Assembly (NCBI RefSeq): GCF_001428605.1
Contig: NZ_LMID01000011.1
Coordinates: forward strand, 496,880 to 560,879
Direction of reading: 5' to 3'
Origin: Sphingomonas sp. Root720
GTDB lineage: Bacteria > Pseudomonadota > Alphaproteobacteria > Sphingomonadales > Sphingomonadaceae
DNA: 64,000 bases
Positions 9,437 through 33,120 of this stretch are shown here, one piece after another. The first letter of the stretch is position 1. Each line of letters starts with the position of its first letter. A program made the translations under genes and the position numbers. The notes below the pieces were generated by a model that saw only the letters and a program-made list of their open reading frames with translations, ran no database searches and was not told where the DNA came from.

Positions 9437-11593
9437 CTAGGTCCAAAGTCGGCGATATCGATCTAAGAATTTGGTTATTTCGTCATACAGGCCTGCGATC
9501 TGCGTCTGTCGCAATTCTAGATTGAGCGCGATGAGCCCGCGACGTGCAATATAGTAGCCGCGATCCGCCAAGAAGAAGAACAGCAGGTCGCGAAGTCGGT
9601 TGTCGATGCGGTCGATCTCGACGAAGCTTCGGATAGACCGGTTTGTTGCATGGACGTTCATGAGCGAACCGAGCCCGATAAGCTGAAGCGGCGCGTTGGC
9701 TTCGCTGAACAGATCATTGAGGCGGCCGCGCAGATCGTCACCAGCGCGATTCAACGCCTCGACGCGTTCGGTTGTATAGATTTCGCGCAGTCCGGCCGCG
9801 CCGGCCGCCATCGAGATCACATTATTGTTGAACGTCCCGGCATGCTGCAGCGCGTTGGGCCGGCCCGGCGAGAACATGTCCATGAGCGCCGCCTTGCCGC
9901 CGAAGGCCCCGATCGCGCCGCCGCCGCCGATATACTTGCCCAGAGTGGTGATATCGGGATCGAGGCCGATAAGTTGCTGACGCCCACCCGGTGCGAGCCG
10001 CGAGGTCTGGATTTCATCCAGGATGACGACTGCCCCGGCCCGCTTCGCAGCGGCCTCGACGCCCTTCAGGAATTCGGGATCGCCGGGCAGGCACCCTCCG
10101 GCGCCCAGCATCGGCTCTAAAAGCACCGCGGCCAGATCGGCGGCGTGGGTTTCGATCAGCGCTTTCGCGCCCGCCAGATCATTATAGACGGCATAGACGA
10201 ATTCGCCGGCAATATTGACCGGCGAAGCACCCGCCAAAAAGCTGAGCACGCCGCCATGATAGGCCCCGGTGAACACCAATATTCGGCTTCGCCCGGTGGC
10301 CGCGCGGGCCAGGGTGACCGCCATCAGGTTGGCCTCGGTGCCGCTGTTGGTGAAGCGGACCAGATCGATCGAGGGGAAGCGTGCGACCACCAGTTCCGCC
10401 AGTTCGACCTCATAGGGCGTATGCGCCGAAAGGTTCGTGCCACCGTCAAGCGCCCTGTCGATGGCGGCGCGGATGACCGGGTTGGAATGGCCGTAGAGCC
10501 CGGCGGTGAATTCGCCCAGGAAGTCGACATATTCCAGGCCGTCGACGTCCCACAGGCGCGTGTCCTGCCCCCGCGCCATGACGATCGGGAACGGATCGTA
10601 GAAGAGCACCGAGCGGGTGTTCCCGCCGGGCATCGACCGGGCGCCTCGCGCCAGCATCGCGGCGCTTTCGGGCCGGCGCTCGGCAAAGCAGCGCTTTGCC
10701 TCGATCAGACAGCTATCGATATCGGGTTTGGCGTGGATCGATGGGGCGACGTCGCGGCTGCTCCAGGCTTCCGCGATCAGCGCGTCGGCGATTGCCTGAT
10801 AACGTTCGTCCTCGCCGTCGCCGTTCACGACCGCCGAAGGTCCGGCTTCGGCGATATCACCATGATAGGAGCCAGCGTTGAGCGCGATATCGGCTATGCC
10901 AGGCTCGCTTTCCTCGAGCGCGCGAGCCCGCGCCTGAAGCCGGCTCATGGGCCCGTCGGGATCGAGGGTGCGGCCCATGTCCATTCCGGCAAGCATTGGC
11001 CGTCGTCCAATGTAGAGATGCGGCCTGAGATGGCCGCGCATCGCCCGGTCGAGAAGTGTCGATGCGCGATAGCTGGTCTCGAAATGATCGGTATGCGGCG
11101 TGGTCCGGAAACCGGTCAATATATCGGCATGGCGAACCATCGCATCGCTGACATTGGCGTGAAGATCGAGACTCAGCGCGATGGGTATTTTCGTTCCTGC
11201 GAGCGCGCGCACGCGGCGTAATATCTCGCCCTCGCAATCGGGATGATCCCGGGAATACATCGCGCCGTGAAGGGCGAGGAGAATGCCATCGACCGGCTGG
11301 GCCTTTTCCAATTCCCTGAGCAACCGGCACGCCAGGATCTCGAACGTATCGACGGTCAGCAGGCCGCTAGGCATGGCTTCGGCGAAGAAGGGGAAGCGCA
11401 GCTTCCAGCCGAGATCCCGCCCTGCCTCGGCTATCCCGCCGGCAGTCGATCGCATGCCGATGAACTGGTCTGCGTCGAAGCGTTCCGGGTCGGCATCGCG
11501 AAAATGGCCGAGCCCGGTCGGCAACCTGCTGAAGCTGTGGTTCTCAGGGCTGATTCCACAGGCGAAGACCTTGAACGGACGGGATGCAGGCAT
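9437..11593 (-). CDS. fusion of MlrC-type (M81) metallopeptidase domain and beta-amino acid aminotransferase
   Basis: This is one 718-residue open frame with two unrelated enzymes. Residues 1-280 are the N-terminal domain of M81 (MlrC/microcystinase C) peptidases. Putative zinc and catalytic residues are Glu17 (SPENHSF), His109 (LLALHGAM), Asp143 and His145 (LDLHAN) and His167 (TTPHTDH), with the same spacing as in MlrC. The usual MlrC C-terminal domain (about 180 residues) is missing. Residues 285-718 form a fold-type I class III aminotransferase close to beta-phenylalanine aminotransferases and glutamate-1-semialdehyde aminomutase: MPGGNTRSVLFYDPFP with Arg327, Asp526 in ILDEIQTSRLAP and PLP lysine Lys553 in TTLGKYIGGG. 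The switch occurs within residues 278-290 without a linker. A regulon operator lies 54 bp upstream. No signal peptide is seen, so it is cytoplasmic. Whether both halves are active is unknown. Confidence 0.88.
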   Translation of the reverse strand: MPASRPFKVFACGISPENHSFSRLPTGLGHFRDADPERFDADQFIGMRSTAGGIAEAGRDLGWKLRFPFFAEAMPSGLLTVDTFEILACRLLRELEKAQPVDGILLALHGAMYSRDHPDCEGEILRRVRALAGTKIPIALSLDLHANVSDAMVRHADILTGFRTTPHTDHFETSYRASTLLDRAMRGHLRPHLYIGRRPMLAGMDMGRTLDPDGPMSRLQARARALEESEPGIADIALNAGSYHGDIAEAGPSAVVNGDGEDERYQAIADALIAEAWSSRDVAPSIHAKPDIDSCLIEAKRCFAERRPESAAMLARGARSMPGGNTRSVLFYDPFPIVMARGQDTRLWDVDGLEYVDFLGEFTAGLYGHSNPVIRAAIDRALDGGTNLSAHTPYEVELAELVVARFPSIDLVRFTNSGTEANLMAVTLARAATGRSRILVFTGAYHGGVLSFLAGASPVNIAGEFVYAVYNDLAGAKALIETHAADLAAVLLEPMLGAGGCLPGDPEFLKGVEAAAKRAGAVVILDEIQTSRLAPGGRQQLIGLDPDITTLGKYIGGGGAIGAFGGKAALMDMFSPGRPNALQHAGTFNNNVISMAAGAAGLREIYTTERVEALNRAGDDLRGRLNDLFSEANAPLQLIGLGSLMNVHATNRSIRSFVEIDRIDNRLRDLLFFFLADRGYYIARRGLIALNLELRQTQIAGLYDEITKFLDRYRRLWT

Positions 11594-11646
11594 GGGCTCT
11601 CCTTCCCCTCGAGCGTCTAGCTGTCATCAGAATAGCTCGCAATAAA

Positions 11647-11663
11647 ATTGTACATCGGACAAT
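11647..11663. promoter_or_regulatory. regulon operator A (ATTGTAC-N5-ACAAT dyad)
   Basis: ATTGTACATCGGACAAT is a 17-bp dyad, extended to AATTGT...ACAATT, 54 bp upstream of the fusion gene start. Four more copies of the same motif precede other genes of this region (17457, 19622, 25810, 25956). A TetR-family regulator encoded at 17515-18237 is the likely binder; this is inferred from the shared location. Confidence 0.72.
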
Positions 11664-11719
11664 TGGATCGCCCTCCGAGCTTTGCCGCTGAAGACGGCGG
11701 GACACGCCGATACGTCCTG

Positions 11720-12120
11720 ATGAACAGGGCAGTCTTCGATTCGGGAAGGAAGGCGGGGGCCGCGGCGCGGCGGTGTCGATCACGCTGCTTTTGACCGCCT
11801 GCTACTTCCTGTCTGTCGTCGACCAGCAGATCATCGCCTGACTCGCCGAGCCATCAAACCGACCTCGGGCTTAGCGATCTGCAAATCGGAATGGTGCAGG
11901 GTTCCGCCTTCTCGCTGTTCTACGCGGCGGCCGGGTTGCCGCTCGGATCGGCGGCCGGCCGTTTCTCCCGCACCCGTCTCGTGGGATCGCGATCGTCCTT
12001 TGGAGCGTGATGACGGCGCTGCGGGGGAACCGTGCAGAATTTCACGTAACCGCTGCTCGCGCGCAAGGGCGTCGGCAAGGCCGCATATCGTGCCCGGATA
12101 AGCCTGTCGCCAGCCCTACC
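11720..12120 (+). pseudogene. MFS transporter pseudogene (N-terminal remnant)
   Basis: Stretches in different plus-strand frames add up to the start of a major facilitator transporter. SITLLLTACYFLSVVDQQIIA (11776-11838) is first-helix-like and ends in a stop. DLGLSDLQIGMVQGSAFSLF continues through GRFSRTRLVG in another frame. GIAIVLWSVMTALRG follows after a one-base shift, and then QNFT-stop-PLLAR-GVG. At least three frame or stop lesions are visible and nothing of the rest of the transporter remains. It occupies most of the 572-bp gap 11594-12165 between the fusion gene and the serine hydrolase. It may be the lost importer of the surrounding peptide-degradation cluster. Confidence 0.8.
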
Positions 12121-12165
12121 AGACGTTTGTTCCGCGATCGGGGCGCTGCGACGCCGGGGCCGCCT

Positions 12166-13713
12166 TCAGCGCCTGCTCGTCGGCCCGAGCAGGGCTGGGA
12201 CGATATGCTCGCTGATCAGCCCCAGAGGCGTGCCGGGCTCATGTGATCGCGTCGCCGTCCGCCAGGATGCCGAGGTGATGACGATCACCGTTTGCACCGA
12301 CGGCAGCACCATGATGAACTGTCCGCCCTGACCGATCGCGCTATAACCGTCGATCTTCTCGATATGACGGTGCTGCGCATTGGTCAGATGCCAATAGAAG
12401 CCATAGGGATAATCGCCATCGGCGGTCTGCTGCGTGGTGGACTGCGCGATCCACCTTTCGGAGAGGATATGCTTGCCCCGCCACAGGCCCTTGTCGAGCA
12501 TGAGCTGGCCGAGCTTCGCAGCGTCGATCGGGCGCATATAGACGCCCCCGGCGGCGAGCGGGCGTCCATGATCGCGGGTCGGCATCCAGCTGTAATTGGT
12601 GATGCCGAGCGGCTTGAATAACGTGCGATCGGCAAAATCGGCAAAAGGCTGCTTCACCGCATTCTCGATCAGCCGGCCCTGCAACGCGGGCAGCCCATTG
12701 TCGTAATTGTAGCGGGTGCCGGGTTTGGCGACGAGCGGCTTGTTCAGCATATAATCCGCGATATCGGTTGCCGCTTCGAGCATCTTCGACGGCTCGCCCG
12801 ACGATGCGCTGTCGTCCCATTTGGTCCCCGAATCCATCGAGAGGATATGGCGCACCAAGATCGGATATTTTTCCTTCGCCCACAGGCTGTCGGAATAGTC
12901 GGGGAAATAGGTGGCGGCGGGCTCGTCGAGGTCGATCAATCCGCGGTCCCACGCCGCGCCGGTGATCATCGCCGTCAGGCTCTTGGTGCAGGACGAGATC
13001 ATGTGCGGATTGTCGGCGGACTGGCCCCAGAAATATTCCTCGAGAATGAGTTTGCCGTTGCGCAGGACGAGTAGGCCTTCGATCTGCGGCTTGTCGATAT
13101 CGCCGCTTTGCCCGAGCACCGCACGGACCAGCGCGGCGAGACGATCCTCGTCGACACCCTGGCTGTGCGCGGACGCGACGGGAAAGCCATCGGCGCGGCC
13201 TGTCGGGGTACGATAGGCATAGTCCCCGGTCCGGTCGCCGTTCGCGTCGAGGCGCGGCGCACGGAACGCCGCCGAGCGGCGGGGGTCGCGGCTGAGCATC
13301 GCTGCATTATGCTCCAGCCCCAGCGGACCGGCATTGTCGATTCTGTAGTCGAGTTCGCCGCGCTTGCCTCGGCGCAGCGTGATCGCAGGGCCGCTGGCGA
13401 ACGCACCAGGAAAGGCCGCTTTGGCGCCCTGCGCGTCGATCGACAGGCTGGCGGCCTCGTCGCTGGCGAGGCGGTCGCGGTTGATCAGGACAAGCGCTCC
13501 GTCGCGCCGTTCGATTTCGATCTCGACCGGAAAGCGCCGCGAGAAGCGACCCCTGCGATCCTGGGCCATGCCATACCAGCGGCCGACGAGATCGGCTTCG
13601 GACAGCCGGGATGCTTCCGCTCCGGCGGGCCGCTCGGCGCGCAGCGCCGGACAAGCAGCAAGACTGAGGGCAAGCATGGCACAGGCCGTCGCGCCGGAGC
13701 GGATCATCCTCAA
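12166..13713 (-). CDS. serine hydrolase of the beta-lactamase/S12 family, exported (possible lipoprotein)
   Basis: This is a 515-residue penicillin-binding-protein-type hydrolase. The start is TTG 13711-13713; AGGAG eight bases upstream lies inside the end of the M28 gene, which suggests translational coupling, although ATG 13707 is an alternative. The N-terminus is a signal sequence ending LALSLAAC, so Cys21 may be lipidated. The catalytic SxxK is Ser241-Cys-Thr-Lys244 and the Y-x-N motif is Tyr337-Asp-Asn339. A roughly 150-residue N-terminal extension of unknown fold precedes the catalytic domain. Such enzymes include D-aminopeptidases, esterases and MlrB-like peptidases. It is the last gene of an operon with an M28 peptidase and an aminotransferase, so a peptidase or amidase acting outside the cytoplasm is the best guess. 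Confidence 0.87.
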   Translation of the reverse strand: MRMIRSGATACAMLALSLAACPALRAERPAGAEASRLSEADLVGRWYGMAQDRRGRFSRRFPVEIEIERRDGALVLINRDRLASDEAASLSIDAQGAKAAFPGAFASGPAITLRRGKRGELDYRIDNAGPLGLEHNAAMLSRDPRRSAAFRAPRLDANGDRTGDYAYRTPTGRADGFPVASAHSQGVDEDRLAALVRAVLGQSGDIDKPQIEGLLVLRNGKLILEEYFWGQSADNPHMISSCTKSLTAMITGAAWDRGLIDLDEPAATYFPDYSDSLWAKEKYPILVRHILSMDSGTKWDDSASSGEPSKMLEAATDIADYMLNKPLVAKPGTRYNYDNGLPALQGRLIENAVKQPFADFADRTLFKPLGITNYSWMPTRDHGRPLAAGGVYMRPIDAAKLGQLMLDKGLWRGKHILSERWIAQSTTQQTADGDYPYGFYWHLTNAQHRHIEKIDGYSAIGQGGQFIMVLPSVQTVIVITSASWRTATRSHEPGTPLGLISEHIVPALLGPTSRR

Positions 13714-13717
13714 ATGA

Positions 13718-15970: not shown

Positions 15971-16012
15971 CGGGGTGTCCTTCGCATCACGAGGGGCAGC
16001 AATCTTCTTCGG

Positions 16013-17365
16013 TCAGCCGATCATGTCGCAGTGCAGCGCTTCGCCGACAGCGGCGTCGAGGGAGGTGGCAAGGCGGTCGACGATCTGCGCGATCTCGCCT
16101 TCGGTCACGATATAGGGCGGGGCGACGATGGCATGATCGCCCGCCACGCCGTCGATCGTACCGCCGGTCGGATAAATCCCCAGGCCATTGCGCATCGCCG
16201 CCGCCTTGAGGCGCTCATTGAAGTGGACGGCGGGATCGAACGGCTTGTCGTGCGCACGCTCCCGAACGAACTCCAGCGCCCAGAACAGGCCACGCCCTCT
16301 GATGTCGCCGACATGCGGATGATCGGCAAAGCGGTCGCGCAAACTCGCTTCCAGCAGCGCGCCCATGCTCCGGACTCGCGCGTGCAACCCGTCCTCGCGG
16401 ATGATCCGCTGCACCTCCAATGCGGCCGTGCAGGCAACGGGGTGCGCCTGATAGGTGTGGCCATGGACGAAGGCGCCCGAACCGACGGCGAGTGCGTCGA
16501 TGACACGGCCGGATACGAGGATTCCGCCGATCGGCTGGTACCCGCCGCCCAGCCCCTTGGCGATCGCCTGGATATCGGGCGTGACGCCTTCCTGCTCCCA
16601 CGCATGCAGCGTTCCCGTCCGGCCCATGCCCGACATGATTTCGTCGAGGATCAGCAGCGCGCCATGGCGGTCGCAGACTTGGCGGATCGCCGGGAAGTAG
16701 CCGGGCACTGCGGCGACACAGCCCGCGGTCGCGCCCACCACCGGTTCGGCGATGAACGCGATCACGCGATCCGGGCCCACCCGCTGGAATTCCTCTTCCA
16801 GTTCGCGCGCCAGCCGTGCGACATAATCGGCATCGCTCTCGGTCCGCTCCTGGTAGCGGAACGGAAAGCAGGGCGAGACCCGGCTGAAATTATGCGGCAG
16901 CACGTCTTCGTAGATCGACCGGCGCGCCATATTGCCGCTGGCGGCCAGCGTGCCGAACAGATTGCCGTGATAGCTTTGCCGGCGCGAGATATAATGGACG
17001 CGCTGCGGCTCGCCGCGCTCGACATGATATTGCCGTGCCATCTTGAGCGCCGATTCCATCGCGACCGAGCCGTCGGAGACGAAGAAAGCGCGCGTCAGGC
17101 CGCCCGGGTGGCCGTCGAGCAGCAGTTCGGCCAGCGCTTCCGCGGGTTCGCTCGAGAAGAAGCCCGTATGCACATAGCCGAGCTTCGCGGCCTGCCTGCC
17201 GATCGCGGCGGCGACACGCTCATTGCCGTGGCCGAGACAGGCGACCGCCGCCCCCCCCGACGCGTCGATGATTTCCGCACCATTGGCCAGCCTGAGGATC
17301 AGCCCTTTGCCCGAGACGGCGATCTCGGGTTCGGTGGCGATGGTGCGATGAAGAACTTTGGACAT
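16013..17365 (-). CDS. class III aminotransferase (omega-amino acid/beta-alanine:pyruvate type)
   Basis: This 450-residue PLP enzyme starts at ATG 17363-17365, preceded by a GGGGGAG element; an in-frame GTG 13 codons upstream is possible. It has the class III block with Asp241 in ILDEIMSGMGRTG and PLP lysine Lys270 in AIAKGLGGGYQPIG. The N-terminal SDGSVAMESALKMARQYH and SYHGNL stretches bind cofactor phosphate. Relatives transaminate omega- or beta-amino acids and amines to pyruvate. Operator B lies 92 bp upstream, and the gene heads an operon with the M28 peptidase and serine hydrolase. It could deaminate a second product of the peptide, or share the beta-amino acid step with the fusion protein. 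Confidence 0.9.
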   Translation of the reverse strand: MSKVLHRTIATEPEIAVSGKGLILRLANGAEIIDASGGAAVACLGHGNERVAAAIGRQAAKLGYVHTGFFSSEPAEALAELLLDGHPGGLTRAFFVSDGSVAMESALKMARQYHVERGEPQRVHYISRRQSYHGNLFGTLAASGNMARRSIYEDVLPHNFSRVSPCFPFRYQERTESDADYVARLARELEEEFQRVGPDRVIAFIAEPVVGATAGCVAAVPGYFPAIRQVCDRHGALLILDEIMSGMGRTGTLHAWEQEGVTPDIQAIAKGLGGGYQPIGGILVSGRVIDALAVGSGAFVHGHTYQAHPVACTAALEVQRIIREDGLHARVRSMGALLEASLRDRFADHPHVGDIRGRGLFWALEFVRERAHDKPFDPAVHFNERLKAAAMRNGLGIYPTGGTIDGVAGDHAIVAPPYIVTEGEIAQIVDRLATSLDAAVGEALHCDMIG

Positions 17366-17456
17366 GAACTCCCCCGCCGCGTGCGACGCGGCGACAACGG
17401 ACACCGCAGCGGGCGTCGCGCCCCGCGATTCGATGCGAAGGAGCTACATCAAAAAA

Positions 17457-17473
17457 ATTGTACAGCAAACAAT
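17457..17473. promoter_or_regulatory. regulon operator B (ATTGTAC-N5-ACAAT dyad)
   Basis: ATTGTACAGCAAACAAT is a 17-bp copy of the shared dyad. It lies 92 bp before the class III aminotransferase start and 41 bp after the TetR gene stop, in an AT-rich patch unlike its surroundings. Confidence 0.72.
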
Positions 17474-17514
17474 AATTTTAGAATTGATTTCGGGATGCCT
17501 GGACTACGTCGAGA

Positions 17515-18237
17515 TCAGTCGGCTTTCGCCAGGCCCTCGATCCCCGCGACAAGAATGTCGAGACAGAGTTCGAAGCTCGTATCCAGCGGAGCATCAATGC
17601 CATTTTGCCAACGCAGGATGAAGGCGCGGTTCGACAGATTGCGCATGTTCCGGCTGAGCAACGGATAGGCCTCCGCATCGACCGAGAGCAATCTTTCTTG
17701 TACAGCGATCTGCCACTGGGCGGCATCCTCTCGCGGGATCGGCGCAAATTCCTGGGTCGTGAAGCCGACCATCATCGCCAGCACCATATTGTAGCCGCCG
17801 ACAAGCGCATTGTCGGAAAGACCCGCCTTCGAGAGCGTCGCCAGGATATATTCCACCAGATCCAGGTCGACCTGCGTGTTCGAGACGAGCTGGCCGCCGA
17901 TGAGCGGCGCAACATTGGGATGGGCGCGCACCGCAGCACGAAAGTTGCGCATTATGTCCCGCAGGCCCGCTTGCCACTCACGGCGTCGTTTGGCGGGGAC
18001 CACGTCGCAGGTGACCGCCGTGACGACATGCGCCAGCAGGGCATCACGATTGGACACATACCAATAGATGGCGGTTGGATAGACGCCCAGCTTCTGGGCA
18101 AGGTTGCGCAGGCTGAAAGAGTCCAGGCCCTCGGCGTCGATATAGTCGAGTGCGGCTGCGACGATGACGGGCTGGCTGAGCGCAGGCGTATCCGCCGAAG
18201 CTTTCCTCCGTCCCTGCTTCTTCGTGCCGGTGACCAC
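17515..18237 (-). CDS. TetR/AcrR family transcriptional regulator
   Basis: This 240-residue protein starts with GTG 18235-18237, with GGGGAG seven bases upstream. The N-terminal helix-turn-helix (about 40-68: SLRNLAQKLGVYPTAIYWYV...RDALL) is typical of TetR proteins, and the helical C-terminal half (about 85-240) should bind a ligand. It lies between the P1 peptidase (119 bp upstream) and the aminotransferase on the same strand. No dyad of the regulon type is seen directly in front of it, so it may be transcribed from the P1 promoter under operator C. It is the only regulator within the five-operator region and is therefore the best candidate repressor, with a peptide or beta-amino acid as possible inducer. 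Confidence 0.88.
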   Translation of the reverse strand: MVTGTKKQGRRKASADTPALSQPVIVAAALDYIDAEGLDSFSLRNLAQKLGVYPTAIYWYVSNRDALLAHVVTAVTCDVVPAKRRREWQAGLRDIMRNFRAAVRAHPNVAPLIGGQLVSNTQVDLDLVEYILATLSKAGLSDNALVGGYNMVLAMMVGFTTQEFAPIPREDAAQWQIAVQERLLSVDAEAYPLLSRNMRNLSNRAFILRWQNGIDAPLDTSFELCLDILVAGIEGLAKAD

Positions 18238-18356
18238 GTCCCATCTCCCCTGCAGGCAATGGTCCTGCCCTAACCGGGGCGATCGGAAAGCGCCAGACGC
18301 AATAGGCGGCAGAATGCGGTCGGGCCTGTCCGTCGTACATGGGGGAGCTTGTCGGC

Positions 18357-19568
18357 TTAGCGCGGCGGCGAACCGGCGGGAGCCGTGTAGCGCCCATATT
18401 TCCTCAGCAGCGCCTGAAGCCGGTCGTGGGGCAGCGCGTAGACGGTCGATCCGTCGGTGCCGGTCATCGTCTTCGCCGCCACGAGCTGGTTGACCAGCGC
18501 CTCTTCGACCGCCTGGGTGGCGGCGGTGAACAGTGCATCCATCACATCCTGCTCATTGTCGCTGATATAAGCCTGGCCAACGGGCTTGCCGTCATAGGGC
18601 AGGGTGTTGGTGGTCGAGAAGGCGAGCGCGAACTCTCCCGAATAATTGCCTGCGGTGCTGCCGCTGCGGCCCACGCCCAGCGCCGCGCGGCGCGAAAGGC
18701 GTTGCAGCTGGTGCGGCTGGAGCGGCGCGTCGGTGGCGATCACGACCAGCAGCGAATTCTTCTCGGGCGTGTCGGGCTCCGGCGCCTTGGCGGGCGGACG
18801 CATGACGGGCTCCAGGTCCCGAATTTCCTGACCGACCGGGATGCCGGCGATCCTGAGATCGCTGCGCTTGCCATGGTTCGCCTGGAGCAGGACGCCGATC
18901 GTATAGGTCCGGCTCCCAACCTTGACGACCCGCGATGCGCCACCGGTGCCGCCTTTGAAATGATAGGCGGTCATGCCCGTGCCGCCACCGACATTGCCCT
19001 CCGCGACCGGCCCTGCCGAGGCGCCGTCGAGCGCGGCGAAGACGTCGGCGGTGGTCATCGGATGGCCGTAGACATCGTTGAGCCGGGCATCGAGCGTTTC
19101 GCCGACCACCGGCAGCAACCGCGTGAACAGCTCGTCGTCCGACAGATAGCCGGGTCGCGCCGCCCAGTCGATCAGCCCCTGATGCACGACGCTGACATTA
19201 CCCGTTCCGGTGAGTGCGATGGGGCCGAAGAACAGCCCGACCTCATCGATCATGCGGGTACCGGTGAACTCGCCGGTGCCGTTGATGACGGAGAATCCTG
19301 CCGCCACCGCATCGCGCCCGGCCTTGCCGAGCGGCAGGATCACGGTGACCCCGGTCCGCACCGGCCCCTTGCCGCGCACCAGCTTGCCGTTGCCATGGAT
19401 CAGCGTCGTCATGCCGACCTCGACGCCCTTCACGTCGGTTATGGCGTTATAGGCGCCCGGTGTGCCGTCGAACGGCACGCCCAGATCGCGCGCGCGCGGC
19501 TCCGCCCCGGAAGCGCCGGTGCTCAGCGCCATCATGACCACCGCCATCGCCGTAAATATTCTCTTCAT
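18357..19568 (-). CDS. P1 family (DmpA/BapA-type) beta-aminopeptidase, exported and self-processing
   Basis: This 403-residue protein starts at ATG 19566-19568, with GGGGAGG six bases upstream; an upstream extension of 29 residues is unsupported. A signal peptide covers about residues 1-22. The mature protein begins PRARDLGVPFDGTPG, as in DmpA/BapA enzymes. The autoproteolysis site is Asn271-Ser272 in PEKNSLLVVIATDAPL: cleavage would free Ser272 as N-terminal nucleophile of the beta-chain. BapA cleaves at the same kind of Asn-Ser bond, whereas DmpA uses Gly-Ser. AEGNVGGGTGM (189-199) and GRSGSTAGNYSGE complete the Ntn-like active site. BapA-type enzymes remove N-terminal beta-amino acids from beta-peptides that ordinary peptidases cannot cut. 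Operator C lies 54 bp upstream, shared with the divergent BKACE operon. Confidence 0.92.
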   Translation of the reverse strand: MKRIFTAMAVVMMALSTGASGAEPRARDLGVPFDGTPGAYNAITDVKGVEVGMTTLIHGNGKLVRGKGPVRTGVTVILPLGKAGRDAVAAGFSVINGTGEFTGTRMIDEVGLFFGPIALTGTGNVSVVHQGLIDWAARPGYLSDDELFTRLLPVVGETLDARLNDVYGHPMTTADVFAALDGASAGPVAEGNVGGGTGMTAYHFKGGTGGASRVVKVGSRTYTIGVLLQANHGKRSDLRIAGIPVGQEIRDLEPVMRPPAKAPEPDTPEKNSLLVVIATDAPLQPHQLQRLSRRAALGVGRSGSTAGNYSGEFALAFSTTNTLPYDGKPVGQAYISDNEQDVMDALFTAATQAVEEALVNQLVAAKTMTGTDGSTVYALPHDRLQALLRKYGRYTAPAGSPPR

Positions 19569-19621
19569 GATGTGCCTCCCCGGGAGCTCCCACATGGCTC
19601 TTTCATACCCGGCAAATTTCT

Positions 19622-19638
19622 CTTGTTCAATGTACAAT
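19622..19638. promoter_or_regulatory. regulon operator C (divergent promoter)
   Basis: On the minus strand this reads ATTGTACATTGAACAAG, the same 17-bp dyad. It is placed between the divergent P1 peptidase and BKACE genes (54 and 73 bp from their starts), so one site could control both operons. Confidence 0.7.
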
Positions 19639-19710
19639 AATCTGCCAGTCGTCATGCGATACCACGACGCAGCTGCGGGAAACCCGCGCGCAGTTCAAAG
19701 GATGTTTGCA

Positions 19711-20604
19711 ATGGCGACAGGCACGGACAAGGTCATCGTAACGGTAGCGCCGACGGGCGGTATGGCGTCGAAGGCGCAGAACCCGAATCTGCCGACGCAA
19801 CCCGAAGAGATCGCCGAGTCGGTGTTCAAGTCCTACAAAGAAGGTGCCGCGATCGCCGCCCTGCACGCGCGCCGGCCCGATGACGAGGCCACCTGCAATC
19901 CCGACATCTACCGCGCGATCAACGACGGCATCCGTGCGAGATGCGATATCGTCATCAACAACTCGACCGGCGGCGGATCGAACGGCGACATGCTCGTGTC
20001 GCGCGACGATGGCCTGTTCGAATCCAATTTCACCGAGCGGCTGAAGGGCTGCGAGGCTGGCGCGGAGATGGCCACGTTCGACGGCATGACCTTCGTCGAC
20101 GTCCATGGCGGCCGCGAGATCATCGTGGCGACGACGCCATCGCGCTGCGAGACGCTGGTCAAGCGGATGATCGATCGCGGCATCAAGCCCGAATGGGAGG
20201 TGTTCAGTCCGACCCACATCCTGCAGGATGTCACCCGGCTGATCCAGAAAGGCTATGACAAGCCGCCCTATTACATCAACATGGTGCTGGGCGCCGACAA
20301 GGGCTTCCAGGGCGCGATGCCCTATAGCCATGACATATTGGCGGCGATGATCGCCGCGCTGCCACCGCAGTCGATTTTCTGCGTCTCGGCGATCGGGCCG
20401 GCGCAGCTTCCGGCGACAACACAGGCCATCCTGCTGGGCGGGCATGTCCGGGTCGGCCTGGAAGACAATAACTACTATGCGCGCGGCGTGCTCGCGACCA
20501 ACGAGCAGCTCGTAGCCCGCACCGTCCGGATCATCCACGAGCTCGGCCTCGAACATGCCAGCGCGCCCGAGGCTCGCGATATCCTTGGCCTCGCCCAGCG
20601 TTAG
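19711..20604 (+). CDS. BKACE family (DUF849) beta-keto acid cleavage enzyme-like protein, altered metal site
   Basis: This is a 297-residue TIM-barrel protein of the 3-keto-5-aminohexanoate cleavage enzyme family. ATG 19711 is chosen because AAAGGA lies eight bases upstream. Family enzymes cleave a beta-keto acid with acetyl-CoA to acetoacetate and a new acyl-CoA. Visible family blocks are VTVAPTGG near the N-terminus, NNSTGGG, and GGHVRVGLEDN with metal ligand Glu251. The usual His-x-His zinc pair is Ala50-Leu-His52 here (AALHARRPDD), and the Arg of the G-R-x-Q-x-P motif is Pro (IGPAQLP). The activity could therefore differ from the described members. It opens the plus-strand operon with an amino acid permease, a TyrA-like protein and a thioesterase. 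Confidence 0.85.
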   Translation: MATGTDKVIVTVAPTGGMASKAQNPNLPTQPEEIAESVFKSYKEGAAIAALHARRPDDEATCNPDIYRAINDGIRARCDIVINNSTGGGSNGDMLVSRDDGLFESNFTERLKGCEAGAEMATFDGMTFVDVHGGREIIVATTPSRCETLVKRMIDRGIKPEWEVFSPTHILQDVTRLIQKGYDKPPYYINMVLGADKGFQGAMPYSHDILAAMIAALPPQSIFCVSAIGPAQLPATTQAILLGGHVRVGLEDNNYYARGVLATNEQLVARTVRIIHELGLEHASAPEARDILGLAQR

Positions 20605-20627
20605 GACATATCGGGCTAGCTACAGGG

Positions 20628-22022
20628 ATGAAGAGAGGAACGCCGTTGACGCCTTCGCCGATCGACCGGGCGGCGCCCCAGCACGCGCTGAGCAATCGTC
20701 ACATCCAGTTCATCGCGATCGGCGGTGCGATCGGTGCCGGCCTGTTCATCGGCTCGGGCAGCAGCATCGAGGGTGCGGGGCCCGCTGTCCTGCTCACCTA
20801 TGCGCTGTGCGGCGTCTTCATCTTCTTCATGGCACGTGCGCTCGGCGAGCTGACATTGATCGAACCGGCGCAGGACGCTTTCGCGAGCTACGCCGAACGC
20901 CATATCGGGCCCGTTGCCGGGTTCGTCACCGGCTGGAGCTACTGGGCGAACTGGATATTGGTCGGCGCGGCGGAGATCACCGCATGCGGTGTGCTGATGC
21001 GCTTCTGGTTCCCTGATCTGCCGCAATGGATGCCCAGCCTGCTGGCGCTGCTCGCCATCTATGCGGCGAACATGCGCGCGGTGCGGCTGTTCGGCGAGAT
21101 CGAGTTCTGGCTGTCGCTGATCAAGATCGTGACGATAGTGGCGCTGATCGGCCTTGGGCTGGCTCTCCTGTTCCTGCCCGGCTTTCCGAAGCTGGCGGGG
21201 GCGTCGGTCGGCAATCTGTTCGATCATGGCGGCTTCTTTCCGAAGGGCGTCGCGGGGATGATCTCCATCCTGCCGATCGCGCTGTTCGCCTTTGGCGGAG
21301 TCGAGGTGATCGCGCTCACCGCACGCGAGGCGCGCGATCCGGTGCGTTCCATCCCGCGCGCGATCAACGGCGTGGTGCTGCGCATCCTGATCTTCTACAT
21401 CGGTACGATGTTCGTCGCGATGAGCATCGCGCCCTGGACCAGCTATAGCGGCGCACAAAGCCCGTTCGTGTCGGTGTTCAGTCAGGCCGGAATCGGCGCC
21501 GCCGCTTCGATCGTCAACTTCGTCGTGCTGACCGCAGTCCTTTCCTCGTGCAATACCGGGCTGTTCGCCACCGGGCGCATGCTTGCCGGCATCGCCAATC
21601 GGGGCGAAGCCCCGGCCATGCTCGGCGTGATAAATGCACGCGGGCTGCCCGGGCGGGCGATCACCGCCTCGGCGCTGTGCCTGTTGCTCGCCGTACTCCT
21701 GAACTGGCTCGTGCCCGATCGCGCCTTCGGAATATTGATGGCGGCTACCGCCTATCTCCTCCTCGGCGTGTGGACCGTCATCCTGATCGCGCATTACCGG
21801 ATGCGACGCGGCCGGTCGGCGGATGCTCGCTCGCCCTTCCCGATGCCGTTCTTCCCGGTCTCCAACGGGATAGCCCTGGCCGCGATTCTGCTGACCGCTC
21901 TGCTGATGGCGTCCGATGCGGCCAACCTGATCGTCACCGTCATCGCCGCCGGCTGGTATGGGGCGCTTGCCGCCGTCGCGCTGCTGCTGCGGCGAAGGGC
22001 AGGGGCGGCGGCGCATGGCTGA
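20628..22022 (+). CDS. amino acid permease (APC superfamily)
   Basis: This 464-residue integral membrane protein has about twelve predicted transmembrane segments. The APC signature IGGAIGAGLFIGSGSSI lies in the first helix (about 31-47), and FGGVEVIALTAREARDP is the characteristic helix-loop of the amino acid transporter family. The start is ATG 20628; a TTG at 20646 with AGAGGA in front is a real alternative. It would import an amino acid with protons. Its place between the BKACE-like and TyrA-like genes suggests uptake of the (beta-)amino acids released in the periplasm by the exported peptidases. Relatives carry GABA, proline, D-alanine/D-serine or aromatic amino acids. Confidence 0.92.
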   Translation: MKRGTPLTPSPIDRAAPQHALSNRHIQFIAIGGAIGAGLFIGSGSSIEGAGPAVLLTYALCGVFIFFMARALGELTLIEPAQDAFASYAERHIGPVAGFVTGWSYWANWILVGAAEITACGVLMRFWFPDLPQWMPSLLALLAIYAANMRAVRLFGEIEFWLSLIKIVTIVALIGLGLALLFLPGFPKLAGASVGNLFDHGGFFPKGVAGMISILPIALFAFGGVEVIALTAREARDPVRSIPRAINGVVLRILIFYIGTMFVAMSIAPWTSYSGAQSPFVSVFSQAGIGAAASIVNFVVLTAVLSSCNTGLFATGRMLAGIANRGEAPAMLGVINARGLPGRAITASALCLLLAVLLNWLVPDRAFGILMAATAYLLLGVWTVILIAHYRMRRGRSADARSPFPMPFFPVSNGIALAAILLTALLMASDAANLIVTVIAAGWYGALAAVALLLRRRAGAAAHG

Positions 22023-22794
22023 GGCGCGCGTGACGAAGGTCAGCGTCATCGGCTGCGGCAGTTTCGGACAGCTGGTGCTGCGCAGCATCGCGCCGCATGT
22101 CGATGTGACCTGCTATGATGCGGACCGCTCGACGCTGCGCGAAATCGATTATCCGATGGCGATGGACTGCGCCTCGGCAGCGGCGGCCGACATCGTGGTC
22201 CTGGCGGTCCCCGTGCAGGCGATCGAAGAGGTGTTGCGCGCGATCGCCCCGCACCTCCGCGCATCGGCGCTCGTCGTCGACGTCTGCTCGGTCAAGCGCA
22301 AGCCGCTGGCGGCGATGGCGCGCCTCCTCCCCTCCCATTGCGAGATATTGGGCACCCATCCGCTGTTCGGTCCGCAAAGCGCCCTGCGCGGGCTGGCCGG
22401 CAGCGGCATCGCGCTGGTGCCTGTCAGGGGCCGGCAATGGCGCCGGGTCGCCGCCTTCCTCGAAAAGGCGCTCCATCTCGACGTGATCGTCACGACAGCC
22501 GAGCGTCATGACCGCGACATGGCCTATGTCCAGGGACTGACGCACATGCTGGCACGGGTAGTCGGGCAGATGCGCCTGCCCACGACGCCGCTCACCACGC
22601 GAACCTATGACCATATGCTGTCGATGGTCGGCTTGGTCGGTCAGGACAGCGACGCGCTGTTCGAGGCGATCATGGCCGAGAACCCCTATTCCGCTGCAGT
22701 CTATGACGAGTTCGTCGGCCAGTTCACGAAGCTGCGGGATCTGGTGAACGGGTTCGACATCATCCCGCTCAGACAGAAGGCCGAACAGGAATGA
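22015..22794 (+). CDS. prephenate dehydrogenase (TyrA) family protein
   Basis: This 259-residue NAD(P)-dependent protein starts at ATG 22015, overlapping the permease stop by 8 bp. The Rossmann motif is VIGCGSFGQL (about 10-19). GTHPLFGPQS and the later QGLTHML contain His residues placed as in prephenate/arogenate dehydrogenases, followed by a helical dimerisation domain. It is encoded inside a catabolic operon rather than with aromatic biosynthesis genes, and it overlaps the thioesterase gene by 4 bp. It may perform an oxidative decarboxylation on a ring or keto-acid intermediate of this pathway rather than make tyrosine. That role is an inference. Confidence 0.8.
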   Translation: MAEARVTKVSVIGCGSFGQLVLRSIAPHVDVTCYDADRSTLREIDYPMAMDCASAAAADIVVLAVPVQAIEEVLRAIAPHLRASALVVDVCSVKRKPLAAMARLLPSHCEILGTHPLFGPQSALRGLAGSGIALVPVRGRQWRRVAAFLEKALHLDVIVTTAERHDRDMAYVQGLTHMLARVVGQMRLPTTPLTTRTYDHMLSMVGLVGQDSDALFEAIMAENPYSAAVYDEFVGQFTKLRDLVNGFDIIPLRQKAEQE

Positions 22795-23225
22795 CTGGAC
22801 AGATATTCGAGAACCGGATCGATCTTCGCATCGAATGGGGCGACTGCGACCCGGCGGGAATCGTCTTCTATCCGAATTATTTCCGCATCTTCAACAGGGC
22901 GACCGACGCGCTGTTCACGGCGGCTGGCTTCCCGCCTTCGACCGCGTTCGCGCGTTTCGGGATCCTCGGCTATCCGATGATCGACACACGCGCCAACTTC
23001 CTTTCCCCCAACCGGTTCGGCGACGATCTGTTCGTGACAAGCCGGATCACGCGGTGGGGGCGCAGCAGCTTCGACGTCAGTCACCGGCTGCACAATGGTT
23101 CGGGCCTGTCGGTCGAGGGCTTCGAAAAGCGGGTATGGGGGGCGATCGACGGCGAGGGCCGCCTGCGGGGCATCGCGGTCCCCGACGAGGTGCGCGATAT
23201 CATGGTTGCCGCCGATCCCGCCTGA
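22791..23225 (+). CDS. 4-hydroxybenzoyl-CoA thioesterase family protein
   Basis: This 144-residue hot-dog-fold thioesterase starts at ATG 22791, overlapping the TyrA-like stop (ATGA). The motif WGDCDPAGIVFYPNYF contains Asp20, which aligns with the catalytic Asp17 of the Pseudomonas 4-hydroxybenzoyl-CoA thioesterase. The surrounding block is nearly identical to that enzyme as I remember it, closer than to general YbgC proteins. It would hydrolyse an aromatic acyl-CoA to the free acid. It is the last gene of the BKACE operon, so it could release the acid from the acyl-CoA made by BKACE. A hydroxybenzoate product would feed PobA, encoded about 11 kb away. Confidence 0.88.
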   Translation: MTGQIFENRIDLRIEWGDCDPAGIVFYPNYFRIFNRATDALFTAAGFPPSTAFARFGILGYPMIDTRANFLSPNRFGDDLFVTSRITRWGRSSFDVSHRLHNGSGLSVEGFEKRVWGAIDGEGRLRGIAVPDEVRDIMVAADPA

Positions 23226-23342
23226 GGCCGCCGCCGCCAGGCGGAGAGCCCCCACATTACATCGCCGACGCACGTGAGAGCCCTGAGAGTCGTCGGGTGG
23301 TGCCTCATGGTGCGCCCCTCCCTCATCATCCGGACAAAGAAA

Positions 23343-23370
23343 CTCCGGCGTAGCCTGGGCTACGCCGGAG
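23343..23370. terminator. bidirectional terminator-like hairpin
   Basis: CTCCGGCGTAGCC, then TG, then GGCTACGCCGGAG forms a perfect 13-bp inverted repeat between the convergent thioesterase and TonB receptor genes. There is no T-run. The position between two converging operons supports a terminator. Confidence 0.6.
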
Positions 23371-23409
23371 AGGAGTGGAGTCCTGTCGGTGGCGCCTGCG
23401 CGCCGCCGG

Positions 23410-25734
23410 CTACTGCTGGTATGTGAGGGTCAGACCGAAGGTCCTCGGACGAACCGACGTTTCGTAGAACAGCGTCGTCGTTGGAAGGTCGCGTACCCGC
23501 GACAGGCGCGGCGCCTGGTCGAGCGCATTGTTGACATAGGCCGAGACCGTGACGCTGCCCAGGTCGACCCCCGCTCGGAACGCCAGCGCGTGGATCGGTT
23601 CCGATTCCAGCGCCTGAGCGTCGATGCCGAACACCGTCGGGCTGCGCAGCTGACCCTTGCCCTGATATTGATAGTCGGTCCGGAAGAACGCCTTGCGTCC
23701 GGCAACTTCGAACGCATAATTGCTCGACAGCGCCGCGGTCCATTTGGCGCCGCTGGTCACCGGATCGCCCTTGAGGCCGAGGATGACCGTTCCGGTACCG
23801 CGCAGCGTCTTGTCGAGCGTTGCATCGGTATAGCCGATCGAGGCACCCAGGGTGAGCGACGAGCTGGGCCGCGCAGTCAGCTCCAGGTCGAAACCCTTGG
23901 CGGTGGCGTCGCCGAAATTCGTGATGAACTCGGAGCCGCAACCCTGCAGCGGAACGCTCTGCTGGATGTCCTTCCACTTGATGTAGAAGCCGCTCGCCGC
24001 GACCTGCAGCGCGCCTCCCAGCGTCTTGTTCTTGGAGCCGACCTCATATGACGTGGTCGAATCCGAGTCATAGGCGCCTGGGGCGTCGGTGATCCCAAGC
24101 TGGGCCAATGCGGCGTTGCAGAAGGCCGAGGAAGGCGGGTTCGCGCCGCCCACCCGGTAGCCCTTGGAGATCGAACTGTAGAGCAGGTTGCTGTCATCTA
24201 CCTGCCACGACAGACCGGCCTTGTAGGTGAAGGGTGATTCGCTCTGCTTGCCGCCGACCGGAGGCGGGTTTCCACCGGCCGCCGGGCCCTGGCCGGCCCG
24301 TAGGAACTTGAACTTCGTCCTTGCCTGGCGCGCGCCCAAGGTCAGCGTCAGACCGTCGACGATCTTGTAGTCGGCCTGAGCGAACAATGCCTTCTGTTCA
24401 TCCGAACTCGAGCGGTTCGAGAAGAAGGTGTAGACACCCCGGAACAGCGGCACGCCGAAGAAATCCTCGGCGGTGATGCCCAGGATCTGCTGGAAGGCGG
24501 CGTCGAGCGTAGGCGCGGTGTTGCCCTGGAACGAATCCTGGTCGTTCTTGCTGTAGAAGGCGCCGACCGTCCATTTCAGCGGCGAATCCGGATTGTTGGA
24601 TTCGATCCGGAATTCCTGGGTCCAGGCCTTCTGCTTGTCGACATACTCCGCCTTGTTGTTGAACGGCGTATAGGGCGGGATCGACGTGCCGAAGAATAGC
24701 GCCGACTCGATGTTGGAGAAGTCGCCACCCTGCTTGGTCTTGCGGTCGATATAGGAGGTGCTCGAGACGAGCGACACGCCGCCCGCATCGAAGGTGATAT
24801 CGAGCGCGGGTAGCAGGAACCGGTCCTTATAGGGCTGCGCGAGATTCTTGCCGCTGCGGAACACGCCCTTGTCCGGATTCGACAGGTTGACGAAATAAAG
24901 GTCGCGGTCGTCGGACGACTGATGCTGGTAGAAGAGCGACGGCTCGATCGTCAGATCGGGCGTGACCTGCCACTTCAGCGCACCGCGCAGCGTGTAATTT
25001 TCGTCATTGTTGGTGTTCTTGTCGACGGATTGAAGCGTGGTCGGATTGACCCGGTCGACCCAGCCGCCGGCATTGCGATAGGAACCGCTGACACGGAAGC
25101 CCAGCACGTCGTCGACCAGCGGGCCGCCGATCGCGACACCGGCCTCGTAGCTCGGATCACCGCTCTCGGTCATCGCCACATCCGCACGGCCATAGATGTC
25201 GGACTTGGTCAGGCTCGGCTTGCGCGTGATGAAGCGTACCGCGCCACCCTCGGCGCCCGCGCCAAACAGCGTGCCCTGCGGTCCGCGCAGGACTTCGACG
25301 CGCTCTAGATCGAAGATATAGGGATAGAAGTTCGAGGCGACGTTGCCGGTCGGGCGCACCTGGATCGGCGTTTCGTTCAGATAGACGCCGGTGGTGGGCG
25401 ATCCAACGCTCGACGCGATGCCGCGGATCGAGATGTTCGATCGGCGACCGCCATTCTGGCCGTTCGACGGCGTGATGCGCAAGCCGGGCGCCAGTCGCAC
25501 GACGTCCTCGATGCTGCGGACGCTCTGCGCGTCGAGTTGCTCCTGCGAGAAGGCGACAATGCTGAGGGGCACCTTGCTCAGCGTCTCTTCGCGGCGCTGG
25601 GCGGTCACGACGATTTCATTGGTCGAAACCCCATCTTCAGGAGTTCCCTGGGCAACGGCGTGGCCGCTGATCGATGCAGCGACCAGCGCTGCAGCAGATG
25701 TGGTGATAAGTTTCGCAATCCTGGCCGATGCCAT
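23410..25734 (-). CDS. TonB-dependent receptor
   Basis: This is a 774-residue outer-membrane protein. The start at ATG 25732-25734 has GAGGGAGG five bases upstream; the longer ORF is not supported. The signal peptide (about 1-29, ending GHAVAQ) is followed by the TonB box region EIVVTAQRREE, the plug domain (VEVLRGPQGTLFGAGAEGG) and a large beta-barrel ending in Gln (LTLTYQQ) rather than the more common Phe. It should bring a large or scarce substrate across the outer membrane with TonB energy. Two regulon dyads lie 76 and 222 bp upstream, linking it to the peptidase and aminotransferase genes, so a peptide is the likely cargo. Confidence 0.93.
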   Translation of the reverse strand: MASARIAKLITTSAAALVAASISGHAVAQGTPEDGVSTNEIVVTAQRREETLSKVPLSIVAFSQEQLDAQSVRSIEDVVRLAPGLRITPSNGQNGGRRSNISIRGIASSVGSPTTGVYLNETPIQVRPTGNVASNFYPYIFDLERVEVLRGPQGTLFGAGAEGGAVRFITRKPSLTKSDIYGRADVAMTESGDPSYEAGVAIGGPLVDDVLGFRVSGSYRNAGGWVDRVNPTTLQSVDKNTNNDENYTLRGALKWQVTPDLTIEPSLFYQHQSSDDRDLYFVNLSNPDKGVFRSGKNLAQPYKDRFLLPALDITFDAGGVSLVSSTSYIDRKTKQGGDFSNIESALFFGTSIPPYTPFNNKAEYVDKQKAWTQEFRIESNNPDSPLKWTVGAFYSKNDQDSFQGNTAPTLDAAFQQILGITAEDFFGVPLFRGVYTFFSNRSSSDEQKALFAQADYKIVDGLTLTLGARQARTKFKFLRAGQGPAAGGNPPPVGGKQSESPFTYKAGLSWQVDDSNLLYSSISKGYRVGGANPPSSAFCNAALAQLGITDAPGAYDSDSTTSYEVGSKNKTLGGALQVAASGFYIKWKDIQQSVPLQGCGSEFITNFGDATAKGFDLELTARPSSSLTLGASIGYTDATLDKTLRGTGTVILGLKGDPVTSGAKWTAALSSNYAFEVAGRKAFFRTDYQYQGKGQLRSPTVFGIDAQALESEPIHALAFRAGVDLGSVTVSAYVNNALDQAPRLSRVRDLPTTTLFYETSVRPRTFGLTLTYQQ

Positions 25735-25809
25735 GCGTGCCTCCCTCTTGATGAGCAGTGTGACGTGGTCCTCCCTGGACGCGCCCACTGTTCGAAGCAC
25801 TATCATTTC

Positions 25810-25826
25810 CTTGTACGACATACAAT
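25810..25826. promoter_or_regulatory. regulon operator D upstream of the TonB receptor
   Basis: CTTGTACGACATACAAT is the shared 17-bp dyad with one end mismatch, 76 bp before the TonB receptor start. Confidence 0.68.
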
Positions 25827-25955
25827 AATCTTATGGAGCGTATTCGGCGCCAGAAATTCCGGCGCGGAACCCGTATAATATACCAAGATAACGCTGTTTA
25901 ACGGCGCCATAGGCACATGGACCGCCTTCGGATAGCCGTGATTCGACCTGCGATC

Positions 25956-25972
25956 ATTGTACGATCTACAGC
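25956..25972. promoter_or_regulatory. weaker regulon operator E, second site upstream of the TonB receptor
   Basis: ATTGTACGATCTACAGC keeps the left half of the dyad exactly and part of the right half. It is 130 bp upstream of operator D, between the TonB receptor promoter and the 3' end of ligI. It may be a secondary site or chance. Confidence 0.5.
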
Positions 25973-26026
25973 ATAATATCGGGAGATTCGGCGTTGTGTC
26001 TGGGCATTCCCGATTTTGCCTGGGGC

Positions 26027-27964
<1,938 letters not shown>

Positions 27965-27972
<8 letters not shown>

Positions 27973-28636: not shown

Positions 28637-28670
28637 CTCATATCTCCTTTGCTGCCTCGTTCCCCCTGAT

Positions 28671-28680
28671 GTTGCGCAAC
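28671..28680. promoter_or_regulatory. palindrome in the ligK/LysR divergent promoter
   Basis: GTTGCGCAAC is a perfect 10-bp palindrome in the 92-bp gap between the ligK and LysR genes, with a TATAGAT-like -10 element on the plus strand about 40 bp further on. LysR regulators usually bind such dyads between themselves and their target operon. The match is short, so confidence is modest. Confidence 0.45.
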
Positions 28681-28728
28681 GCCAATCCATATTGCCGAGC
28701 ATCGATAAGTTTTTGCTATAGATAGTGC

Positions 28729-29934: not shown

Positions 29935-29988
29935 CAGCCCAAGCAATTGGATTGGCCGCCCTGTCCGCACCCGCTCTAGCAGCGGCGC

Positions 29989-31874: not shown

Positions 31875-33120
<1,246 letters not shown>

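Follow-up and report, generated by a model that had tools for sequence, protein, structure and literature searches.

Several described systems carry out parts of the chemistry that we propose here for a gene cluster in a 64,000-nucleotide stretch of Sphingomonas sp. Root720 DNA (contig NZ_LMID01000011.1; the whole stretch is called the window, and positions count from its first nucleotide). In lysine fermentation, the kdd-kce route deaminates a beta-amino acid to a beta-keto acid, which a beta-keto acid cleavage enzyme (BKACE) then splits with acetyl-CoA (3-keto-5-aminohexanoate cleavage). Because that route already joins beta-deamination to BKACE, the logic of the Sphingomonas locus has a precedent, albeit an anaerobic, non-peptide and non-aromatic one that uses a dehydrogenase instead of a transaminase. 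In the literature that we searched, from which subscription papers were mostly absent, nothing links the beta-aminopeptidase BapA of Sphingosinicella to a downstream pathway for beta-amino acids. The same literature held no paper joining beta-amino acid transamination to BKACE and none on a fusion of an M81 peptidase. Beta-phenylalanine transaminases are known from Variovorax (VpAT) and Mesorhizobium (MesAT), and described beta-phenylalanine degraders lose the keto acid to spontaneous decarboxylation, which yields acetophenone (PMC6150868). Rhodococcus makes hydroxyphenyl-beta-ketopropionates with a carboxylase and a phosphatase of the kinds that adjoin some relatives of the BKACE described below, and in Sphingobium SYK-6, VceA and VceB convert hydroxyphenyl-beta-ketopropionates to hydroxybenzoates (PMC9618137), VceB being a vanilloyl-/syringoyl-CoA thioesterase (PMC11837543). 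The Sphingomonas locus brings counterparts of these enzymes together, and we consider it probable that it is a TetR-controlled catabolic regulon for peptides containing aromatic beta-amino acids, most likely of the beta-tyrosine type.

Beta-transaminases, BapA, BKACE and VceA/VceB-type conversion are thus known already; what would be new is the fusion of a peptidase to a transaminase, the conserved pairing of TetR with its operator, and a regulon that leads from peptide to aromatic acid through a BKACE fed by transamination. An earlier sequence-only reading of this DNA had proposed a regulon for degrading beta-amino acid-containing peptides and knew of no described pathway with this gene set; we likewise found no full description in the literature searched. 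Profile searches and sequence searches of the Protein Data Bank (PDB) recovered every gene that it had named. On the minus strand lie a fusion of an M81 domain (PF07364, E 9e-73, 245 bits, residues 8-299) to a class III aminotransferase (PF00202, residues 333-654) at 9437-11593; a predicted exported S12 hydrolase of the beta-lactamase fold (PF00144, 12166-13707); a predicted exported M28 peptidase resembling glutamate carboxypeptidase II (PF04389, PF02225 and PF04253, 13718-15970); a second class III aminotransferase, AT2, of the PRK07483 family (NF005685, 645 bits against a cut-off of 485; 16013-17365); a TetR-family regulator (PF00440 and PF02909, 17515-18237); a predicted exported S58 (P1) beta-aminopeptidase of the BapA type (PF03576, 342 bits; 18357-19568); and a TonB-dependent receptor (PF00593 and PF07715) running from 23410 to about 25734, with its start inferred at MASARIAKL in an open reading frame (ORF) whose longest form begins at 25821. 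The plus strand carries a BKACE of an aroylacetate-type subfamily (PF05853, 262.5 bits against a cut-off of 24.8; 19711-20604), an amino acid permease (PF00324, 346 bits; 20628-22022), a prephenate/arogenate dehydrogenase-like NAD enzyme (PDH-like; PF02153, 85 bits to prephenate dehydrogenase in the PDB; 22015-22794) and a 4HBT thioesterase (TE) of the aroyl-CoA type (PF13279/PF03061, 22791-23225). The sequence-only reading had overlooked the PDH-like gene, between the permease and the TE. The fusion, an AT2-M28-S12 operon (17365 down to 12166), TetR, S58 and TonB are thus on the minus strand, and the BKACE-permease-PDH-like-TE operon (19711-23225) is divergent from S58.

Comparing upstream regions revealed that the units of this locus have in common a 15-bp odd palindrome, TTGTACRNYGTACAA-like. 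Copies lie about 55 bp upstream of the fusion start (TTGTACATCGGACAA, 11648-11662), upstream of the AT2-M28-S12 operon (TTGTACAGCAAACAA, 17458-17472), within the S58/BKACE divergent promoter (TTGTTCAATGTACAA, 19623-19637) and upstream of TonB (TTGTACGACATACAA, 25811-25825), where a second operator-like site with two mismatches also occurs (TTGTACGATCTACAG, 25957-25971). The shared dyads reported in the sequence-only reading are therefore real, and its five promoters can be read as those of the fusion, the AT2 operon, S58, the BKACE operon and TonB. At up to three mismatches, TTGTACRNYGTACAA has 11 matches in the window against 1.1 expected, a number reached by none of 100 shuffles. Across the 5.59-Mb genome, all three sites with at most one mismatch and five of the eight with at most two lie inside this locus, a count that is partly circular because the pattern was derived from those same sites; the test in other species, described next, is free of that circularity, as the pattern was fixed beforehand. 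Relaxing the genome-wide scan to three mismatches gives 85 matches, not commoner than those of a reversed control (153). We conclude that the operator fronts five transcription units and is nearly private to the locus. A first operator pattern with the wrong spacing had been dropped in favor of this palindrome, and a generic repeat search of the locus returned mostly coding noise. Stray sites with at most two mismatches occur at three other places in the genome (L254-L256), one of which (position 3190 of L254, two mismatches) lies 53 bp upstream of an ORF for a TonB/Oar-like receptor.

The operator accompanies homologues of the neighboring TetR in other species. We fetched 10 loci from the 15 homologues seen (13 plasmid records and two other genomes); the five left unfetched are Phaeobacter and Vibrio records with identity values equal to those of fetched ones. 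At 34-49% identity to the TetR, 8 of these 10 loci contain the operator, compared with 3 of 230 other loci, a comparison set that leaves out the own-genome loci L001, L002, L032 and L062 and includes own-genome L092 and overlapping stretches of the same contigs. By site count at up to two mismatches, this corresponds to 13 in 198 kb of TetR-homologue loci versus 3 in 2.47 Mb of the others. Three plasmid loci, in which the TetR homologue lies about 2-4 kb from a beta-amino acid aminotransferase (beta-AT), account for seven sites in 64.6 kb: Paraburkholderia graminis pPHS1_P (47% identity), Phaeobacter inhibens pP66_d (46%) and P. phymatum pBPHY01 (42%). The seven further loci were chosen on TetR similarity alone, and five have the operator. 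Two perfect sites separate TetR from beta-AT in genome G506 (L249), one perfect site separates TetR from an AT2-like gene in G403 (L248), Vibrio tubiashii (L242) has a site upstream of TetR, and in both Mesorhizobium ciceri and Sinorhizobium RAC02 one site precedes hisC-type genes. Because the site occurs in 8 of 10 TetR-homologue loci versus 3 of 230 others, the neighboring TetR is the likely reader of the operator.

In P. graminis, sites precede the beta-AT and the porin gene, another separates BKACE from a phosphotriesterase-family gene, and a further one lies farther upstream of TetR. Phaeobacter has one site before a transporter gene and one just inside the annotated beta-AT start; the true start of that gene may be later than annotated. 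TetR homologue, beta-AT and operator thus occur within a few kb in P. graminis, Phaeobacter inhibens, P. phymatum and G506. The P. graminis cluster also includes a BKACE of the same subfamily (60% identity), and that of Phaeobacter inhibens includes PDH-like and AT2-like genes and adjoins pobA-pcaDCHG.

The aminotransferase half of the fusion is, by sequence, closest to the beta-phenylalanine transaminases: its PDB matches to MesAT and VpAT score 448 and 425 bits versus 218 bits for the best GSAM. It aligns with both nearly end to end, including the NTRSVLF, LGKYIGG and ARRGL segments, and keeps the lysine and both arginines; we take these to be the pyridoxal phosphate lysine and the two substrate arginines, R41, K267 and R398 in VpAT numbering. 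Unlike VpAT and MesAT, the locus enzyme is fused to M81 and stands inside a peptide regulon with BKACE. The M81 half shares an LDLHA block and an SFS-x-LPTGL block with MlrC (about 105 bits). Profile search finds no MlrC_C domain (PF07171) in the fusion, where the transaminase takes its place; the M81 protein of Rhizobium CB3060 has that domain. No second M81-beta-AT fusion appeared in 298 family and 385 class genomes among the two or three best candidates scored in each, and because only those were scored, a weak fusion elsewhere could be missed. In a plasmid collection, 34 records match the fusion, none over more than 80% of its length, and the 20 listed match the aminotransferase half. A scan of named genomes, which finds close relatives only and may omit the own genome, returned no fusion either.

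The BKACE is 83-85% identical to BKACEs on plasmids of S. bisphenolicum (pBAR1), S. yanoikuyae and Novosphingobium MBES04. We examined 16 loci of its subfamily (L092 and L098-L104, and on plasmids L222-L226, L228, L229 and L237; L227 duplicates L103), leaving unfetched two S. yanoikuyae plasmids and two further Paraburkholderia records. Relatives from Sphingomonas bisphenolicum pBAR1 (85%), contig C3 of the own genome (86.5%) and G119 (about 70%) adjoin thioesterase, Tm1-like, biotin carboxyl carrier protein, biotin carboxylase, carboxyltransferase and HAD genes, and the carboxylase-HAD set recurs in these 3 of the 16 loci (L092, L100 and L224). The TE of our locus has a 4-hydroxybenzoyl-CoA thioesterase as its best PDB match and is 52% identical to the TE beside BKACE in pBAR1. 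VceA, presumably a BKACE, and VceB would have their counterparts in this combination of BKACE and 4HBT, which in these three relatives is flanked by a carboxylase and a phosphatase like those of Rhodococcus; the likeness lies in genomic slot, and the keto acid of our locus would come from transamination, not from ketone carboxylation. Other relatives stand with gentisate dioxygenase (Variovorax) or with benzoylformate decarboxylase and ring-cleavage genes (Agrobacterium). In Variovorax, Caballeronia, P. largidicola and Massilia, BKACE has a gene of the 3-hydroxyacyl-CoA dehydrogenase type nearby, and on this we base the tentative suggestion that the PDH-like enzyme oxidizes a 3-hydroxy acid.

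Of the predicted exported hydrolases, S58 matches BapA in the PDB at 493 bits versus 340 bits for DmpA. It has the Asn-Ser site KNSLLVVIATDAPL, presumably the site of autocleavage, and, read by eye, a signal-like N-terminus (MKRIFTAMAVVMMALSTGASGA). Because BapA is its best match, it is unlikely to be only an ordinary L-aminopeptidase, an outcome that would have undone the sequence-only reading. The best PDB match of S12 is Lsa45 (127 bits), with 6-aminohexanoate-dimer hydrolase at 56 bits; it has a signal-like N-terminus and its SxxK motif reads SCTK at residue 239. M28 matches GCPIII/GCPII at 267-272 bits. Homologues of AT2 (48-54% identity) stand in apparent operons with S58 in G011, G274 and G242 (L208, L215 and L219). 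We assign exact roles to M28, S12 and AT2 tentatively.

Several of the links proposed for the pathway recur as gene pairings elsewhere. Among 40 alphaproteobacterial beta-AT loci (of 67 aminotransferase matches outside the own genome, top-ranked but for one), six have a BKACE nearby versus 0.27 expected from the 66 BKACEs in their 36 genomes (P 5e-7); the six represent three genera, and counting each genus once gives P 0.003. On plasmids, where 8 of 34 matching records were fetched, BKACE accompanies beta-AT in three (60%, 31% and 27% identity). As raw counts, M81 lies near beta-AT in 4 of the 40 loci and 2 of the 8. Beta-AT and BKACE are paired in independent clusters in Paraburkholderia graminis and in Rhizobium CB3060, whose plasmid pCB3060_2 groups a dipeptide transporter, M81, BKACE, a 4HBT thioesterase and beta-AT with 3-oxoacid CoA-transferase A and B, acetyl-CoA acetyltransferase (thiolase) and glutamate dehydrogenase. 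That cluster would encode the same predicted chain plus acetoacetate recovery and 2-oxoglutarate regeneration, with a BKACE of another subfamily. Among 48 S58 loci taken down ranked match lists, raw counts give an AT2-type gene in 10 (30-54% identity), a beta-AT-type gene in 2, M81 in 2 and BKACE in 1. In G269 and G163 (L095 and L096), S58 overlaps the beta-AT-type gene (33-35% identity) by a few bases, and G234 has S58, BKACE and a class III aminotransferase grouped in about 5 kb. S58 and beta-AT occur together in 25 genomes, from 36 and 62 of 385 (Fisher 2e-14, kinship ignored). The sequence-only reading had suggested looking for co-occurrence of S58, the fusion and BKACE; BKACE appears at only 1 of 48 S58 loci, and none of the other genomes searched showed the fusion.

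Beyond the TonB receptor, after about 0.3 kb, a block for 4-hydroxybenzoate metabolism and 4,5-cleavage of protocatechuate (26027-35267) begins, which the sequence-only reading had also missed. In order, it contains an amidohydrolase, 4-oxalomesaconate tautomerase, LigK, a PcaQ-like LysR (28729-29934), a DUF1932 protein, an amidohydrolase, LigA, LigB, a Rossmann oxidoreductase (LigC-like) and PobA (34095-35267, plus strand). The tautomerase, LigK/PcmE, LigA, a LigB subfamily and PobA exceed their NCBIfam cut-offs; the other names come from Pfam or, provisionally, from position. A pobA gene also lies about 8 kb from BKACE on pBAR1 and about 17 kb from it on contig C3, there with a protocatechuate 4,5-cleavage-type set (L257). 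Because relatives of BKACE and TE occur in clusters of the hydroxyphenyl-beta-ketoacid type and because pobA and the 4,5-cleavage block adjoin the locus, we narrow the substrates to aromatic beta-amino acids. From the aroylacetate-type contexts and the pobA/lig neighbors, the simplest and most likely substrate would be of the beta-tyrosine type, that is, 3-amino-3-(4-hydroxyphenyl)propanoyl residues.

From these gene identities and contexts we infer the following chemistry. The TonB receptor would take the peptide up, and the exported S58, M28 and S12 enzymes would trim it, with S58 removing the N-terminal beta-amino acid. The permease would import amino acids, and the M81 half of the fusion may cut the remaining beta-aminoacyl amides. 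The liberated beta-amino acid would then be transaminated by the other half of the fusion, giving an aroylacetate; left alone, this unstable beta-keto acid is expected to lose CO2. BKACE would react this compound with acetyl-CoA to give acetoacetate and an aroyl-CoA, from which the thioesterase would set the aromatic acid free. 4-Hydroxybenzoate could then pass through PobA and the neighboring Lig enzymes into central metabolism. AT2 probably acts on a second amino donor, and the PDH-like enzyme may supply the same beta-keto acid from 3-hydroxy acids. The ligand that releases TetR might be the beta-amino acid or the keto acid formed from it. The degradation chain of the sequence-only reading is supported in several links by the comparative pairings, in a form narrowed to aromatic beta-amino acids. 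Tentatively, and with somewhat less than even confidence, we extend this proposal to a dedicated, horizontally mobile catabolic system for beta-tyrosine or beta-aryl-amino-acid peptides, spread over alpha- and betaproteobacteria with one conserved TetR switch. One bifunctional protein would cut the beta-aminoacyl amide and transaminate the product, and an Ala-x-His BKACE would take the aroylacetate before it decarboxylates. If true, this would supply the missing biological route for MesAT/VpAT-type enzymes. Beta-phenylalanine transaminases serve biocatalysis, and the locus would give a concrete route via BKACE and an aroyl-CoA thioesterase. It also offers a regulator whose operator is defined, and the combination of TetR, operator and beta-AT can guide searches across proteobacteria.

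A number of observations weigh against this picture. No relative examined has the whole gene set. A TetR homologue is a rarity, present in just 2 of 239 other class genomes; the fetched locus of Roseomonas marmotae (L241) has no operator site at up to two mismatches, and Agrobacterium LN-1 (L243) has three-mismatch matches only. BKACE is missing from the fetched stretch of 34 of the 40 standalone beta-AT loci and from 47 of the 48 S58 loci; an aminotransferase of either type is present in 12 of the latter and in none of the other 36, and the six closest S58 relatives (L105-L110, 58-66% identity) have no AT2, beta-AT, M81 or BKACE nearby. The carboxylase cluster is absent from 13 of the 16 BKACE-subfamily loci and from the window locus, a thioesterase match is found in eight (L092, L100, L101, L223-L226 and L229) and not in the other eight, and the 83% relative in Novosphingobium MBES04 has neither. 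The BKACE itself has alanine in place of the first histidine of the HxH motif, to which we ascribe a metal role: the window protein and all 10 subfamily relatives aligned have AxH (AxHARRP), whereas of seven other BKACEs aligned, six have HxHxR and one, from Phaeobacter, CxHVR. Nearer homologues of the PDH-like protein, on one Roseibium and one Paracoccus plasmid, are not with beta-AT. A structure model of the fusion is confident for the aminotransferase half and of low confidence for M81, and because the M81 half is poor it says nothing on the peptidase. A LysR of its own accompanies the pob/lig block, and a scan of 26027-35267 shows no operator site with at most two mismatches, so the block is tied to the locus by position only. 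Another protein of the genome resembles BenA, at 731 bits just short of the 781-bit cut-off, which keeps beta-phenylalanine, leading to benzoate, a candidate substrate. Finally, more distant TetR homologues (L243, L244 and L245) adjoin aminotransferases of the histidinol-phosphate or class I/II type, with hut genes in L243. The same operator type occurs in two of these three loci, and ligand sensing in this TetR family may extend to amino-acid-like compounds more generally.

Other explanations would account for part of these data. The regulon might serve peptides of aliphatic beta-amino acids, such as beta-alanine, carnosine-like compounds or beta-amino fatty acids: BapA/DmpA enzymes accept beta-alanyl peptides, and AT2 in L215 adjoins genes that, by reading of their sequences, encode an aldehyde dehydrogenase and a CoA-transferase. 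We regard this as unlikely, given a thioesterase of the 4-hydroxybenzoyl-CoA type, several BKACEs of the clade in aromatic clusters and the adjoining pobA/lig genes; beta-alanine, moreover, would presumably yield malonate semialdehyde, which is no useful BKACE substrate. A slightly more doubtful explanation divides the locus into two unrelated functions side by side, with S58, M28, S12, M81 and the aminotransferases scavenging peptides and the BKACE-permease-PDH-TE operon, with an origin in lignin-type catabolism, acting on aroylacetates or 3-hydroxy-arylpropanoates. The closest BKACE and TE relatives do stand in non-nitrogen contexts, and BKACE recurs near a 3-hydroxyacyl-dehydrogenase-type gene without aminotransferases. 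However, the same operator occurs on both sets, including their shared divergent promoter, P. graminis has a BKACE of the same subfamily and beta-AT with a common TetR/operator, and CB3060 repeats the pairing with M81.

The joint presence of S12 and MlrC-type M81 also recalls the mlr genes, whose products MlrB (S12 fold) and MlrC (M81) hydrolyze a peptide that contains a beta-amino acid. MlrB is modelled on penicillin-recognising enzymes (PMC11070527) and MlrC frees the beta-amino acid Adda (PMC9144602), so that the locus could be read as a relative of mlr that degrades cyanopeptides (microcystin or nodularin). This is very improbable: the locus M81 lacks the C-terminal MlrC_C domain and is fused to a transaminase, its similarity to MlrC is only about 105 bits, and no mlr cluster turned up, although none was specifically sought. 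Additionally, the published breakdown of Adda leads to phenylacetate (PMC7232508), whereas the genes adjoining this locus are pob/lig. The aromatic beta-amino acid regulon is the preferred explanation.

Two further gene sets came to light in the course of this comparison. On contig C3 of the own genome (66 kb; L092, C3:33000-48000, with L257), TE-BKACE and the biotin-dependent carboxylase/HAD cluster stand beside pobA, as on pBAR1, whose host is a Sphingomonas strain with a species name that hints at bisphenol use; the C3 cluster is a probable 4-hydroxyacetophenone catabolic locus. Separately, G108 (L093/L094) and G277 (L097) have paired BKACEs with genes named, by reading their sequences, as class III aminotransferases, short-chain dehydrogenases/reductases, NAD-binding dehydrogenases and mandelate-racemase-like proteins. 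These sets appear to be another conserved aminotransferase-BKACE cluster.

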